Shown here in pieces: positions 15,582 through 21,827 of a stretch of 64,000 nt of DNA. Both the position numbers and the translations under genes were made by a program. The notes beneath the pieces were generated by a model that was not told the origin of the DNA, did no database searches, and saw nothing but the letters and a program-made list of their open reading frames with translations. Position 1 is the stretch's first letter; every line of letters begins with the position of its first letter. This DNA is from Emcibacter sp. (lineage in GTDB: Bacteria; Pseudomonadota; Alphaproteobacteria; Sphingomonadales; Emcibacteraceae), in contig JAJFIQ010000019.1 of the NCBI GenBank assembly GCA_021774785.1, positions 868,001-932,000 of the forward strand, written 5' to 3'.

Positions 15582-16223
15582 ATGGAAATCATACTTCTTG
15601 AACGCGTACGCAAACTGGGCCAGATTGGCGATATTGTAACCGTCAAAAATGGTTATGCCCGCAACTTTCTGTTACCACAGAAAAAAGCCCTACGCTCAAC
15701 TAAAGCCAACTTGGCATTTTTTGAAACCCAGCGTGCAGAGATCGAAACCAGAAACCTTGAAGCCAAAACAGAAGCGGAAGCCGTTTCAAACAAACTTGAA
15801 GGCGTATCAGCGATCATCATCCGTCAGGCTGGTGAATCCGGCAATCTTTATGGTTCTGTATCTGCCCGTGATATTGCTGCTGCTCTTGGTGAACAGGATC
15901 TGAAAGTAGCTCGCACACAGGTCATTATGGATCATGCTATCAAATATCTTGGTATCTACACCATACAGATCAAACTGCATGCCGAAGTTTTCTCCACCAT
16001 TGAAATTAACATTGCCCGCTCAGCTGAAGAAGCTGAGATGCAGGCACAGGGTCTTGATGCCAAAGCCGCAGAGGAAGATCTTGACGTTTCCGTTGAAGAT
16101 TATTTCGAGAACGAAGAAGATTCAGAAGCTGCAATCGCCGCTGAGCATGAAGGTGACGAATCAGAAGAGACCGTAACAGAAGACGTTGTTGCGGAAGAAG
16201 CTGAGGAAGAGAAAAGCGAATAA
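15582..16223 (+). CDS. rplI: 50S ribosomal protein L9 with acidic C-terminal tail
   Basis: L9 is a two-domain large-subunit protein near the L1 stalk. The N-domain is canonical (EIILLERVRKLGQIGDIVTV, GYARNFLLPQKKAL) and the C-domain includes GESGNLYGSVSARDIA. The protein has 213 residues against roughly 150 in E. coli. The extra residues from about 150 on are a strongly acidic Glu/Asp/Ala-rich tail (YFENEEDSEAAIAAEHEGDE). Alphaproteobacterial L9 proteins often carry such tails. AGGGAG precedes the start and a strong terminator follows the stop. Confidence 0.96.
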   Translation: MEIILLERVRKLGQIGDIVTVKNGYARNFLLPQKKALRSTKANLAFFETQRAEIETRNLEAKTEAEAVSNKLEGVSAIIIRQAGESGNLYGSVSARDIAAALGEQDLKVARTQVIMDHAIKYLGIYTIQIKLHAEVFSTIEINIARSAEEAEMQAQGLDAKAAEEDLDVSVEDYFENEEDSEAAIAAEHEGDESEETVTEDVVAEEAEEEKSE

Positions 16224-16253
16224 CTTACGCTAATCTTCAATAATTCATTAAAA

Positions 16254-16283
16254 GGAGCTACTGTTTAAGTGGCTCCTTTTTTT
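16254..16283 (+). terminator. Rho-independent terminator of rpsF-rpsR-rplI
   Basis: GGAGCTAC pairs with GTGGCTCC (eight pairs, one G-T) around a seven-base loop, directly followed by seven T residues. It lies 30 bases past the rplI stop and ends the ribosomal operon, so the following DUF547 genes need their own promoter. Confidence 0.9.
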
Positions 16284-16413: not shown

Positions 16414-17676
16414 ATGCAATATTCAGGAATAAAGTCTTTAAAGCGTTTATTCATCTTAACTTCTTTAGCAATATTTGTCCCCTTTCAGTTTGGCCATACT
16501 GAAGATCAGACCAAAAATAATATTGAAAAAATAATAACCCATGATCCAAGTTCAAAAATCGCCATAAATTATGAGAATTTAACACTCCTATTACAAGCCA
16601 CCGTTACCAGACCAAGGGTATCTTCCCGAATTTATGCTCAGAAATCTAACAACTCTATTGGCTCTAGGGTAAATCTTTCCAACAAGAACCCAACACGCAT
16701 GGAAGCAAGCCGTACTTTTTATCACTTTATCGATAAAGAAGAACTGGAATATGTCCAACTGTTACGCCAAGGTATGGAAGCCTTGCCCCAAGTCGTGCCA
16801 TTGCAAAATTTAAACCGTAATGAACAATTGGCCTACTGGCTCAATCTATATAATATCACCGTTTATGAGCAACTTGCTAAACGTTATCCAATCCGAAAAT
16901 TAAAGAAACTTTACAAAGGAACCCGTAAAACCCCCGCCCTATGGGATGAAAAAATTGTAACGGTTAATGGAATAGCTTTATCATTGAATGATATCCAATA
17001 TAATATCATTCAGAAAACATGGCGGGATCCGCTTGTGATCTATGGACTGTATCAGGGGGCCATTGGGGGACCAAACTTGCGTCGAAAAGCCTATACGGGC
17101 AAAATTGTCTATGAACAGTTGGCCGATAATGCTGAAGAATTTGTCAATTCGCTTAGAGGGCTACGCTTTAAAGGAAAAGAAGCCCAAGTCTCGGAAATCT
17201 ATTACTGGAACCGGGACCTATTCCCGGACTTTGACCATGACCTGCGTCGTCACCTGAGAAAATATGCGAATTTACGCTTGGTTACACGACTGGACAGCAG
17301 CCGAAAAATCAAAATAAAATTTTATGACTGGCATATCGCCGATGTCCTGAATGGTGGGCGCGCGAATACTGGAGGGGTCGGTAGTACAAACCCCGTTAGT
17401 ATGGCGCTATCATTCGGCGGTGAGGAATCTGTAGTTGGCCCAGGAATAACCGCGAATGGTTTTGATGGGGGCGACAGTAGCACTCATTTCAATTCACGCT
17501 TGTCTACACATACTGATAAGGCTTTAGATACTGCCATTATACGCAACAGCATGCCTTTGGATGCTGCCGTTTTCTTAAAAGAATTTCTAGAACGTAATAG
17601 AAAACTAAAAGGTGCCAATGTGACAGTCGAGGAAATAGAAAAAAAAGATTTAGATAAAATTAGAAAACAAGACTAA
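16414..17676 (+). CDS. Exported DUF547 protein, copy 1
   Basis: This is a protein of unknown function, 420 residues. A hydrophobic segment (about 11-27, LFILTSLAIFVPFQF) suggests export. A block at about 40-100 (ITHDPSSKIAINYENLTLLL, PTRMEASRTFYHF) is shared by all three tandem copies. The DUF547 domain spans roughly 125-250, with LNRNEQLAYWLNLYNITVYE, LSLNDIQYNIIQKTWRDPLV and YQGAIGGPNLRRKAYTG. The stretch that in many bacterial DUF547 proteins reads like NCASxGCPNL has no cysteine here. The C-terminus ends VTVEEIEKKDLDKI. GGGGA lies eight bases before the ATG, and a strong terminator lies upstream. Confidence 0.8.
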   Translation: MQYSGIKSLKRLFILTSLAIFVPFQFGHTEDQTKNNIEKIITHDPSSKIAINYENLTLLLQATVTRPRVSSRIYAQKSNNSIGSRVNLSNKNPTRMEASRTFYHFIDKEELEYVQLLRQGMEALPQVVPLQNLNRNEQLAYWLNLYNITVYEQLAKRYPIRKLKKLYKGTRKTPALWDEKIVTVNGIALSLNDIQYNIIQKTWRDPLVIYGLYQGAIGGPNLRRKAYTGKIVYEQLADNAEEFVNSLRGLRFKGKEAQVSEIYYWNRDLFPDFDHDLRRHLRKYANLRLVTRLDSSRKIKIKFYDWHIADVLNGGRANTGGVGSTNPVSMALSFGGEESVVGPGITANGFDGGDSSTHFNSRLSTHTDKALDTAIIRNSMPLDAAVFLKEFLERNRKLKGANVTVEEIEKKDLDKIRKQD

Positions 17677-17785
17677 ATCCGATAACTAAAACGTGACTTC
17701 GCTTTAAACAACCTTTCCGTTATTTTAGGATTAAAGAACAGATTAATTTCGAGTTTAAAATTATTTTTGTAGGAGTAATATTAAG

Positions 17786-19008
17786 GTGGGAATCAATATC
17801 AAATTTAAAAACCTGAGATGGCTGGTGATTAGTATTCTTTTAAGTTTTTCACTGACAAATAGTGTTCTCGCTAGCGATCAAAAGAAGATAAAAACCCATG
17901 ACCCTGATTCAAAAATAATAATCAATTATGAAAATTTGACACTTCTGTATCAAGCAACGGTTACCAGACCCAGAACATCATCTCGAAAATATGCGGCTAA
18001 AGCCAGACCGGGCATCGGAACTAAAGTAAATTATTCCAGCTCAAGGCCCACACGTTTGGAAGCCAGTCGGGTTTTCTTTCATCAAATTGGCAAAGAAGAA
18101 CAGGAATCTGTTCATATGCTCCGTCTTGGTATGGAATCTCTGCCCGATGTTATCCCCTTACATACCCTGAACCGGAATGAACAGCTGGCCTATTGGCTCA
18201 ATCTTTACAACCTCACGGTTTATGATGAAATTGCCAAACGCTACCCCATAAGTAAATTAAAGAAGCTTTATAATGGCACCAGTAAGACGCCATCTCTGTG
18301 GGATGAAAAAATCATCAATATTAATGGCATAAACATATCATTGAATGATATTCAATATAATATCATTCAGAAATCATGGCATAATCCCCTTGTCATGTAT
18401 GGACTGTATCAGGGTACGATTGGCGGACCAAATCTACGCAGAAAGGCTTTTACGGGAAAAAAAAATATAGCCAACTCGAAGATAATGCTGAGGAATTCGT
18501 TAATTCTCTTAGAGGAATGCGCTTTAAGGGAAAGGACACTTTTGTATCTGAACTCTACGAAAGAAGCCAAGAATTATTTCCCAATTTTGACCGGGATTTG
18601 AGGCGGCACCTTAGACAATTTGCAAATTTTCGTTTACTCACAAAACTGGATAGTAGCCGTAATATCACCCCCAAATTCTATGATTGGCATATCACTGATG
18701 TATTAAATGGGGGAAATCTCAGAGCCAATAGTGCGACTAGTACTAACCCCGTGGGTTTGTTATTATCATTCTCAAAAGCTGCAAGTGGATCGGGCAAACC
18801 TGCTGGTAATGCTCATTATGGTTTATTTGATAATACCATAAACACGGCATCGCTTAATAACCGTCTACCGGATGGAGCAGCTATTTTTCTTCAAAGCTTT
18901 GTTTCTAATAATAAAAATGACAGGTCCGGCAAAGTGACTGTCGAGGAAATCGATAAAAAGGGATATAAAAAAATAAAAATTCAGAAAAAAACTGACCTCG
19001 ACAATTAA
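17786..19008 (+). pseudogene. Exported DUF547 protein, copy 2, frameshifted at A9
   Basis: This second paralog has a GTG start with AGGAG upstream and a hydrophobic export signal (WLVISILLSFSLTNSVLA). The first frame matches copies 1 and 3 through PNLRRKAFTGK, then leaves alignment at a run of nine A (18457-18465) and stops at 18601. The continuation is in another frame, resuming as YSQLEDNAEEFVNSLRGMRF and running to the conserved C-terminal VTVEEIDKKGYKKI. One extra A would restore a full protein of about 407 residues. It may be a recent pseudogene, a sequencing error in a homopolymer, or a gene expressed by polymerase slippage. Confidence 0.75.
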
Positions 19009-19029
19009 ATATTGAAACATTACTATTGC

Positions 19030-19053
19030 CCTTCATCTCAATTGAGATGAAGG
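19030..19053. terminator. Perfect 24-base palindrome between DUF547 copies 2 and 3
   Basis: Ten bases (CCTTCATCTC) are followed by AATT and their exact reverse complement (GAGATGAAGG). As RNA it forms a ten-pair hairpin with a four-base loop. It lies 22 bases past the copy 2 stop and just before copy 3. The following ATTTCTG is only weakly T-rich, so it may be an attenuating terminator or an operator. Confidence 0.5.
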
Positions 19054-19075
19054 ATTTCTGATATTAGGAATGTTT

Positions 19076-20233
19076 ATGGTGCTTAAAACCAATTTGAATA
19101 TATCAAAATGGCTTATCATCTTATTTTCGATGACAGTCATTCATCATGCCCATGCAGATAGCCCAGAAAATACAAATTTTGATATATTCAAATATCATGA
19201 TCCAAATTCAAAAATTACCATCAATTATGAAAATCTGACCAGCCTGCTTAAAGCAACCGTCGTCAGAGCAAGAATGTCATCACGGGTTTATGCTCAAAGG
19301 CCACAGGCGGGCAAAGGGTCAAAAATAAATTTTGCCAATCCTAATCCGACCCGTCTGGAAGGCAGCCGTGTGCTTTACAGTTATCTGAAAAATGAAGATA
19401 AGGCCTATATCCAAAATCTTCGTCTGGCTATGGAGGCGCTTCCCGAAGCCATAAATTTTCGAACTTTGAACCGGAATGAGCAATTGGCCTTTTGGCTCAA
19501 TCTTTATAACATCACCGTTTTTGAACAGATCACCAAGCGCTACCCCATAAGGAAACTTAAAAGCCTGCGTATGGGAACAGGCAAACAATCATCACTGTGG
19601 GACGAGAAATTATTAAACATTTACGGCATTACCTTGTCCCTGAATGACATCCAATATGAAATTATTCAAAAAATATGGCCAGACCCGCTTGTTATATACG
19701 GTATGTATCATGGCTCTATTGGTGGGCCAAATATCCCCAACAAGGCTTTTACGGGTGAGAATTTATATAATCTGCTCGAATATAATGCAGAAGAATTCAT
19801 TAATTCCCTTCGTGGGTTACGTTTCCGGGGCAAAGATGCTCTTGTGTCTGAGATGTATCAATGGAATGAAGAATTTTTCCCGGATTTGCAAACAGATCTG
19901 AGGCGGCACCTCAGAAAATATACCAATTACATGTTAACCATACGATTGGATACCAGCAAGACAATCAAGACAACTTCCTATGACTGGTATATTACCGATG
20001 TCAAAAATGCCAGCGTTACAACGGCGGGTGGTCATATAAGTACGAACCCGGCGGCGATGGCCGGCAATAGAAACCTACCTCATACTGGCATTGCCTGGGA
20101 CACAGCTGTAATCAATAACCGCCTGAAAAATAATTCAGCAGCTTTTTTGATTGATTTCCTCAAATACAATAACAAAAATGCCAAAACCAAGATCACTATT
20201 GAGGAAATCGAAAAGAAGGATTTGAAAAAATAA
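19076..20233 (+). CDS. Exported DUF547 protein, copy 3
   Basis: This is the third intact paralog of unknown function, 385 residues from the chosen start. An ATG two codons earlier directly abuts AGGA, whereas this ATG has AGGA six bases upstream. It shows an export signal (WLIILFSMTVIHHAHA), the shared N-terminal block (KYHDPNSKITINYENLTSLL), the DUF547 domain (LNRNEQLAFWLNLYNITVFE, LSLNDIQYEIIQKIWPDPLV, YHGSIGGPNIPNKAFTG) and the common C-terminal ITIEEIEKKDLKK. It is the most diverged of the three between the domain end and the C-terminus. dnaB follows after 64 bases. Confidence 0.8.
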   Translation: MVLKTNLNISKWLIILFSMTVIHHAHADSPENTNFDIFKYHDPNSKITINYENLTSLLKATVVRARMSSRVYAQRPQAGKGSKINFANPNPTRLEGSRVLYSYLKNEDKAYIQNLRLAMEALPEAINFRTLNRNEQLAFWLNLYNITVFEQITKRYPIRKLKSLRMGTGKQSSLWDEKLLNIYGITLSLNDIQYEIIQKIWPDPLVIYGMYHGSIGGPNIPNKAFTGENLYNLLEYNAEEFINSLRGLRFRGKDALVSEMYQWNEEFFPDLQTDLRRHLRKYTNYMLTIRLDTSKTIKTTSYDWYITDVKNASVTTAGGHISTNPAAMAGNRNLPHTGIAWDTAVINNRLKNNSAAFLIDFLKYNNKNAKTKITIEEIEKKDLKK

Positions 20234-20297: not shown

Positions 20298-21827
20298 ATG
20301 ACAGACTTTCCAGATATACCAATTGATGAAGAAATGGTGGATGACAATGTTGTCGCCTATGATGCCAGTACATTTCGTCAGACACCCCACAACCTGGAAG
20401 CGGAACAGGCTTTGCTGGGTGCTATTCTGGTTAATAATGATGCCATTGAAAAAGTGCAGGATTTTCTGACCGGAAATCATTTTATTAACCCTGCACACCA
20501 AAAAATATTTGAAGCCTGCCGGAAATTAATCGAAAAAGGCCTGATTGCATCGCCTGTAACACTCAAACCTTTTTTTGAAAATGAAGATAGTTTGTCTGAA
20601 ATTGGCGGCGCGGAATATCTGGCCCGCCTTGCAGGGTCAGCCGTTACCATCATCAATACCACAGAATATGGCCAGATCATTCAACAGATGGCCATCAAAC
20701 GGGAATTGATCTCTGTTGGTACTGATATCGTCAATGGGGCTTACGATCACAGCGTCGACAATACGGCCCAGGACCAGATCGAAGAAGCAGAAAAAAGCCT
20801 CTACGGGCTAGCGGAACAGGGCAGTTCCGAAGGGGGCTTTAAAAGTTTTGCCAAATCCTCTACCGATGCGGTCGATATTATTGAAATGGCTTTCAAACGT
20901 GGGGGAAAACTTGCCGGCAAAACAACTGGCTTTGAAAGCATCAACAGAAAGATCGGCGGTCTGCATAAATCTGACCTTATGATTGTTGCGGGGCGGCCTG
21001 CCATGGGCAAAACGGCCCTTGCAACAAACATCGCTTTCAACACAGCGAAAGCTTATCGGGACGACGGGGCACTGGGCGTTTCCCATGAAGACAGCAAAGG
21101 GGCCGTTGTGGCTTTCTTTTCTCTGGAAATGGCCGCCGACCAGCTTGCTGCCCGTATTTTAGCTGAACAGGCCGGACTGTCATCTCAAGATCTGCGTCAG
21201 GGAAAGCTCAGTCAGGATCAATTCAACACACTGGCCCGCACAGCACAGGAGCTGGAAGAACTACCCCTTTATATTGACGATACCGCCTCCCTCAGCATCG
21301 GGGCACTAAGAACCCGCGCGCGACGTCTGAAGAGGCAGCATGGCATGGGCCTTGTTATTGTGGACTATCTACAATTGCTCTCCGGCTCTGGTCGGGGTGG
21401 CAGGGGGCCGGAAAACCGGGTTCAGGAAATATCAGAAATAACACGTGGTCTCAAAGGCTTGGCAAAGGAACTTCAGATTCCGGTCATGGCTCTGTCACAG
21501 CTCAGTCGTAATGTTGAATCCCGTGATAACAAGCGGCCCTTGCTGTCTGATCTGCGTGAATCCGGCTCCATCGAGCAGGATGCGGATATGGTGACCTTTG
21601 TATACCGGGCGGAATATTACCATAATCTGGTACAGCCCGACGAAGGCACTCACGAGCATCTGGAATGGCTGACAAAAGGCGAAGAACTTTACGGCAGGGC
21701 TGAATTCATCATTGCCAAGCAGCGTCATGGTCCAACGGGGAAAATCGATTTGTTATTTGACGCCAGTTCCACAAAATTCACTGATTTGCCTGAATCAGAT
21801 GACTATCTACCGAAGCAAAATAACTGA
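20298..21827 (+). CDS. dnaB: Replicative DNA helicase
   Basis: DnaB is the hexameric 5'-3' helicase of the replication fork. The N-terminal domain begins at HNLEAEQALLGAILVNNDAI. The RecA-like core carries Walker A in GRPAMGKTALATNIA, Walker B in LVIVDYLQLLSG and the motif QLSRNVESRDNKRPLLSDLRESGSIEQDADMV. Its 509 residues are normal and there is no intein. In many bacteria dnaB follows rplI directly; here three DUF547 genes intervene. Its stop overlaps the alr ATG (TGATG). Confidence 0.96.
   Translation: MTDFPDIPIDEEMVDDNVVAYDASTFRQTPHNLEAEQALLGAILVNNDAIEKVQDFLTGNHFINPAHQKIFEACRKLIEKGLIASPVTLKPFFENEDSLSEIGGAEYLARLAGSAVTIINTTEYGQIIQQMAIKRELISVGTDIVNGAYDHSVDNTAQDQIEEAEKSLYGLAEQGSSEGGFKSFAKSSTDAVDIIEMAFKRGGKLAGKTTGFESINRKIGGLHKSDLMIVAGRPAMGKTALATNIAFNTAKAYRDDGALGVSHEDSKGAVVAFFSLEMAADQLAARILAEQAGLSSQDLRQGKLSQDQFNTLARTAQELEELPLYIDDTASLSIGALRTRARRLKRQHGMGLVIVDYLQLLSGSGRGGRGPENRVQEISEITRGLKGLAKELQIPVMALSQLSRNVESRDNKRPLLSDLRESGSIEQDADMVTFVYRAEYYHNLVQPDEGTHEHLEWLTKGEELYGRAEFIIAKQRHGPTGKIDLLFDASSTKFTDLPESDDYLPKQNN

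Follow-up and report, generated by a model that had tools for sequence, protein, structure and literature searches.

The closest described relatives of the proteins considered here are those of the canonical, short DUF547 type (PF04784), most members of which bear the Cys-containing motif H-x(3)-N-C-A-S-x-G-C-P. Publications naming DUF547 mostly concern plants, as judged by title, and the titles and opening abstract lines of the literature gave no function for bacterial DUF547, with one apparent hit (PMC12444450) being a false match whose passage concerns another DUF number. Here we examine three DUF547 genes, all on the same strand, lying between rplI and dnaB in a 64,000-nucleotide stretch of an Emcibacter sp. 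genome (assembly GCA_021774785.1, contig JAJFIQ010000019.1, positions 868,001 to 932,000 of the forward strand), hereafter the window. Copies 1, 2, and 3 score 76, 60, and 72 bits in a profile search against a PF04784 cut-off of 27, with no other Pfam family matched in them at E 1, and a sequence-only reading of the window is borne out in placing three such genes at this site, with a shared N-terminal block and a common (T/I)(V/I)EEI(E/D)KK end found in each. The copies belong to a long, thiol-free family, which is a wider, uncharacterised variant of the known DUF547 with an architecture of N-terminal block, DUF547 domain, variable linker, helix, and conserved GxVTVEE-like tail. Copies 1 and 3 possess the N-terminal block, the thiol-free domain, a V-x-V-E-E-like tail, and an exported-type N-terminus, as does copy 2 in two frames.

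Alignment of 29 canonical-type open reading frames (ORFs; 35 loci were given, six of which yielded none in the search) with 85 long-form domains reveals that the long form has a Gly-rich segment free of Cys in place of the canonical motif. Aligned with I209, Q214, and G219 of copy 1, the canonical-type ORFs show His in 24 of 29, Cys in 26, and Cys in 26, respectively. Among the long-form domains, column 209 is occupied by I, M, L, or V, column 214 mostly by Q or M (with His in eight), and column 219 by G, S, or T, with His at 209 and Cys at 214 or 219 each found in none of the 85. Cys occurs anywhere in the domain in only two of these members, at three columns with one instance each, and none is conserved in copies 1 and 3. 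Retained in the long form, in copy 1 numbering, are N144 (84/85), N147 (82/85), D193 (83/85), R248 (85/85), H280 (84/85), and D310 (85/85), along with E97 and R100 of an E97-x-N-R100 element (84/85 each), with N144, N147, H280, and the YDW end common to both types. The tail is also conserved, with V403 in 81, G401 in 61, V or I at 405 in 78, and E or D at 407 in 82 of the 85 sequences. Three of the 29 canonical-type ORFs (L015, L050, and L162) also lack both Cys residues and look intermediate.

Scanning GTDB genomes yielded 204 encoded relatives, the best 80 of which were kept and correspond to 78 loci (L081-L158). These 80 derive from Kordiimonas, Maricaulis, and other Alphaproteobacteria, and from Gammaproteobacteria including Pseudoalteromonas, Colwellia, Thalassotalea, and Paraglaciecola, with identity to copy 1 of 28–38% outside the genus. 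Many of these genera are marine. Tandem runs of at least two genes occur at 33 of the 78 loci, which are not independent; 20 of the runs are pairs, 12 are triplets, and one has four genes. In our protein tree the copies at each of seven multi-copy loci outside the genus cluster by locus, so there has been repeated amplification. Across an evenly drawn sample of the class, scored with up to six candidates per genome, a PF04784 match was found in 82 of 289 genomes (including that studied here); 65 of the other 81 have a single match, and none of the 81 yielded a full-length long form, with the listed matches starting at or after profile position 22 and ending at or before position 354 of 392. 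Matches occurred in 10 of 72,556 plasmid records (seven from Pseudoalteromonas, all ten predicted to be non-mobilizable, and none covering 80% of the query) and in none of 50,697 phage records. PADLOC and NCBIfam likewise returned no match, and PHROGs returned just E values of 0.025 and 0.045 to families without function.

The sequence-only reading saw a tandem triplication and took the near-identity of copies 1 and 2 in places as a sign of recent duplication or conversion. A recent triplication is contradicted by our comparisons. Protein identity among the three copies is 52–60%, with the proportion of synonymous differences (pS) at 0.70–0.75, at or near saturation, and copies 1 and 2 share 64% DNA and 60% protein identity overall (pS 0.75). 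In the protein tree of 34 sequences, the nine from the genus form one clade (support 100/100), within which copy 1 groups with the first genes of two congeners, G008 and G010 (100/99), and copy 3 with their second genes (100/98), with these orthologs also lying after rplI. Copies 1 and 3 were therefore separate before these lineages split; on these sequence comparisons they are two old lineages rather than new duplicates, and the near-saturated synonymous sites and the tree topology together rule out a recent triplication. Copy 2 is confined to its own genome, and the tree does not resolve the branching of copy 2 and a second cluster there among themselves. Ratios of nonsynonymous to synonymous substitution (dN/dS) between copies of the window and their orthologs of 0.14, 0.16, and 0.19 show, at the codon level, that the orthologs are under purifying selection.

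The near-identity of copies 1 and 2 reduces to one 36-nucleotide (12-codon) segment, identical at 35 of 36 positions, a value reached in none of 300 codon shuffles. The same segment, where it was the best window, is alike at 33–34 of 36 positions in three of four pairs with the second cluster: copy 2 against cluster gene b (33/36; 0/300 shuffles as high), copy 2 against gene a (34/36; 8/300), and copy 1 against gene a (33/36; 40/300). Conversion specific to copies 1 and 2 is weakened by this resemblance, and the segment may thus represent a short conversion tract or codon-level constraint at most.

Export of the three proteins is probable, with hydrophobic N-termini in copies 1, 2, and 3 (12-residue means of 2.41, 2.34, and 2.03) by our own heuristic with a threshold of 2.0, which is not a signal-peptide program. 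By the same heuristic, 92 of 115 family members have such an N-terminus compared with 132 of 487 neighbouring ORFs, and the export signals claimed from the sequence are to this extent recovered in all three copies. The AlphaFold model of full copy 1, built from 85 sequences, has a mean predicted local distance difference test score (pLDDT) of 83, with ten-residue means of 82–99 over residues 41–310 and stretches below 50 in the linker (318–325 and 336–364), behind which lies the tail. Structure prediction, suggested as a check on the sequence-only reading, gives a confident model of the domain alone (pLDDT 95.4, predicted template modelling score 0.92), and Foldseek finds nothing in the PDB at E ≤ 0.001 for either model, which is no proof of a new fold. 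A second look (VIA) gave at best Z 4.2 with a root mean square deviation (rmsd) of 6.2 over 166 aligned residues for the full model, and Z 3.1 with an rmsd of 4.9 over 108 for the domain. By sequence, the best PDB match was to histone acetyltransferases at E 0.22.

The sequence-only reading also noted that many bacteria have rplI next to dnaB, and comparison of the intervals in the genus agrees. In a genus sample of 16 genomes (own included, several incomplete at 62–99%), rplI was found in 15, of which 11 have dnaB within about 0.35 kb after rplI and three (own, G008, and G010) have DUF547 genes there; copy 1 has no match at E ≤ 0.001 in the 13 other congeners. In G008, the contig stops just past copy 3, and the contig carrying dnaB starts with a near-identical stretch of ~45 bases on comparison by eye, so the order rplI - copy 1 - copy 3 - dnaB is very likely in this genome. 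The dnaB of G010 lies on another contig, with unrelated genes behind the DUF547 pair. The dnaB of G010 (G010:C40) is only 73% identical to that of the window, compared with 85% for G008, although G008 and G010 are close. In G013, another gene follows rplI (locus L058) and no dnaB match was found, despite a completeness rating of 99% for this genome.

The empty site of G006 aligns with both flanks in the window, the terminator on the left and the region upstream of dnaB on the right. In a ribosomal-protein tree, G006 lies nearest to G010 (100/93), and G002, also lacking the cassette, nearest to the genome studied here (80/78, weak). With non-carriers standing beside carriers, gains, losses, or exchange of the cassette at this site seem to have occurred more than once. 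As to a single origin at the rplI-dnaB site, the tree requires three changes between carriers and non-carriers, as do 500 of 500 label shuffles, and it thus does not fix how often the cassette was gained or lost.

The layout of the locus is given in Table 1. All neighbours of the trio at this site are housekeeping genes. An element similar to the stem-loop after rplI also follows rplI in G006, G008, and G010, and the position of this terminator-like element makes it probable that transcription of the trio is separate from that of the ribosomal operon. Sites resembling promoters are not enriched in the trio region (14, against a shuffle mean of 13.3).

Table 1. Features of the rplI-dnaB region, in window coordinates
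Feature	Position	Strand	Remarks
rplI (ribosomal protein L9)	15582..16223	+	ORF, left neighbour; query matched in 57/60 relatives
Terminator-like stem-loop and T-run after rplI	16250..16280	+	13 pairs, T tail; parts DUF547 genes from ribosomal operon
DUF547 copy 1	16414..17676	+	420 amino acids (aa), exported-type, intact; G008 ortholog 78% identical
DUF547 copy 2, first frame	17786..18601	+	GTG start, 271 aa; out of frame past A run
A9 run	18457..18465	+	Frame of copy 2 lost here; no longer homopolymer in the 64-kb window
DUF547 copy 2, second frame	18517..19008	+	Open upstream to 18466; 3' part with conserved tail
Palindrome	19030..19053	+	10 pairs, weak terminator-like; between copies 2 and 3
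DUF547 copy 3	19070..20233	+	387 aa, exported-type, intact; G008 and G010 orthologs 61% identical
dnaB	20298..21827	+	ORF, right neighbour; upstream region conserved in empty site of G006

The claim of three homologs in a row stands as to the number of genes, with the qualifications that copy 2 (overall span 17786–19008) is split into two reading frames and that the genome holds a second DUF547 pair elsewhere. The first frame of copy 2 departs from the family alignment at the A9 run. The ratio of nonsynonymous to synonymous differences (pN/pS) of copy 2 against the other copies is 0.37–0.45 behind the break and 0.30–0.39 in front, compared with 0.28–0.41 and 0.31–0.38 at the same positions in five pairs of intact copies, indicating little or no extra decay. 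Copy 2 would thus be a fresh pseudogene broken only very recently, a gene with a sequencing error in its A run, or one rescued by slippage at that run. A frame break in the first copy of G010 was rejected as a parallel, sitting as it does in a stretch with N.

The second tandem pair of this genome, unlinked and of the same subfamily (G000:C11:489740-492223; L036:9657-12233), lies three genes from trxB-lysR and adjoins an inositol-monophosphatase-family gene and typA/bipA. All five PF04784 matches of the genome fall inside the two clusters, leaving it with no canonical Cys-type DUF547. Elsewhere in G008 and G010 there is an additional match apiece (G008:C66 and G010:C111), that of G008 being Cys-type. 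A trxB-like gene, a pyridine nucleotide-disulphide oxidoreductase by Pfam and trxB by our own reading, is found around the long-form gene at nine of the 78 loci (L095, L123, L130, L131, L133, L144, L147, L156, and L157), all in Maricaulis-type genomes except for one Kordiimonas, with lysR also present on either side or close by at all but L156. The view that the family shares no neighbours at all was dropped on this evidence. At 28 of 30 loci in relatives, trxB lies next to lysR and the 1.5 kb retrieved contains no DUF547 match, so the gene pair serves as a landmark and is no proof of a functional link. With relatives in other lineages carrying their genes beside trxB/lysR, this is probably the inherited site, and rplI-dnaB would be secondary.

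Neighbours within three genes were counted at 93 loci, 15 of which came from the first fetch, with some repeating others. A TPR-sulfotransferase family lies near 12 of the 93 and a TonB receptor family near 10, with Pfam confirming both domains for L039, L137, and L138. An unrelated membrane-protein family (Bax-inhibitor-like by our reading) also lies near 12, in Kordiimonas relatives. In the gammaproteobacterial loci L138, L137, and L143, DUF547 genes are found near TonB receptors and TPR-sulfotransferases, together with a putative esterase and domains of 2OG-Fe(II) oxygenases (L137 and L138 by Pfam, L143 by similarity). In G059 (L039:34-15670), a tandem DUF547 pair is flanked on one side by OEP/HlyD-type export genes with a cadherin-rich protein and on the other by two TPR-sulfotransferases, an M50/HlyD protein also being encoded there; the locus looks like one for exporting and modifying a large adhesin.

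We tentatively favour, with limited confidence, an explanation in which the trio encodes exported, thiol-free modules for binding or assembly and forms an old accessory cassette, maintained by purifying selection and amplified lineage by lineage. Once exported by Sec, the domain would act at the surface or in the periplasm and would be a putative binding or assembly module rather than a thiol enzyme, with its tail docking on a partner that may be another paralog. The tandem duplicates would arise and diverge lineage by lineage, and hence one genome may carry several versions with different partners or ligands. Several observations weigh against this explanation. The cassette is missing from G006 and G002, both close to carriers, a patchy presence that makes it dispensable; the strict tail pattern is found in just 46 of the 85 rows; synonymous divergence (dS) of the copy 3 orthologs reaches 1.55–1.83, so their dN/dS is only rough; no general neighbour family accompanies the genes, the commonest lying near 12 of 93 loci; no Sulfotransfer_3 match occurs in G008 or G010, both of which carry a DUF547 pair; and the near-invariant polar residues would equally fit an enzyme. 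This last point is the basis of an alternative, possible though unlikely, in which the long form remains an enzyme whose active site, without a thiol, is drawn from N144, N147, R248, H280, and D310 together with E97-x-N-R100 and whose substrate is an envelope or extracellular polymer. The near invariance of R248, D310, H280, N144, E97, and R100 is what such a site would predict, but the His and two Cys of most canonical-type members are gone, and the Foldseek search offers no relative with a known site.

The neighbours in Gammaproteobacteria and G059, namely TonB receptors, TPR-sulfotransferases, and 2OG-Fe(II) oxygenases, or the HlyD/OEP export set with its cadherin-rich protein, could instead indicate proteins accessory to TonB-dependent uptake or to secreted-protein modification. 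We consider this improbable, as the counts of the two families (not deduplicated) are equalled or exceeded by that of the unrelated membrane-protein family, and the rplI-dnaB site offers housekeeping neighbours only. Sulfotransfer_3, moreover, is found in 50 of 60 relatives anyway and is missing from G008 and G010, so it is no general partner, and dependence on sulfotransferases is rejected for the genus. Patchy presence and the frame break in copy 2 would also suit a nearly neutral cassette, whose redundant duplicates persist for a while, decay, and are lost to leave empty sites. The low dN/dS of the orthologs and the retention of copies 1 and 3 side by side in three genomes make this doubtful indeed, and behind the break copy 2 exceeds the intact pairs only slightly in pN/pS. 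A bolder form of the assembly explanation, that family-wide loss of the thiol motif gave rise to a novel envelope module, exported and with a fold absent from solved structures, and that its tandem paralogs join via the tail to give these Proteobacteria rapidly diversified hetero-oligomers at the surface or in the periplasm, we regard as a long shot.

The lineage-specific envelope system envisaged by the sequence-only reading is thus retained in part, the genes being of exported type by our heuristic, accessory, and lineage-restricted at this site, whilst the neighbour counts do little to back a 'system'. That reading named separately conserved orthologs of known function as evidence to the contrary; separate orthologs of copies 1 and 3 do exist, and no known function was found for them. 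DUF547 is widespread. A large natural subfamily lacking the His/Cys/Cys residues with the rest of the core kept provides a direct handle on the role of the motif, and the two intact, long-separated copies at one site, together with close relatives in which the site is empty, allow a clean genetic test.

Amongst known systems, we considered the papain-like superfamily as a possible relative of DUF547 and found nothing positive, with no PDB match at E ≤ 0.001 for either model and Z of at most 4.2 and 3.1 in the second look; the long form differs from papain-like cysteine proteinases in having no conserved Cys for the catalytic Cys. A term search of the main text of a 2023 classification (PMC10318531) returned neither 'DUF547' nor 'PF04784'. 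With canonical short Cys-type DUF547, the window copies have in common the domain itself, the WxNxYN core, and the YDW end, but are longer (387–420 aa compared with mostly about 260–340), lack the His/Cys/Cys residues, bear an N-terminal block, linker, and tail, and stand in tandem where other genomes of the class mostly have a single match. With the long thiol-free subfamily, they share architecture, motifs, and frequent tandem runs, differing in location, as other members reside by trxB/lysR in Maricaulis-type genomes and one Kordiimonas, or by TonB receptors and TPR-sulfotransferases in several Gammaproteobacteria.

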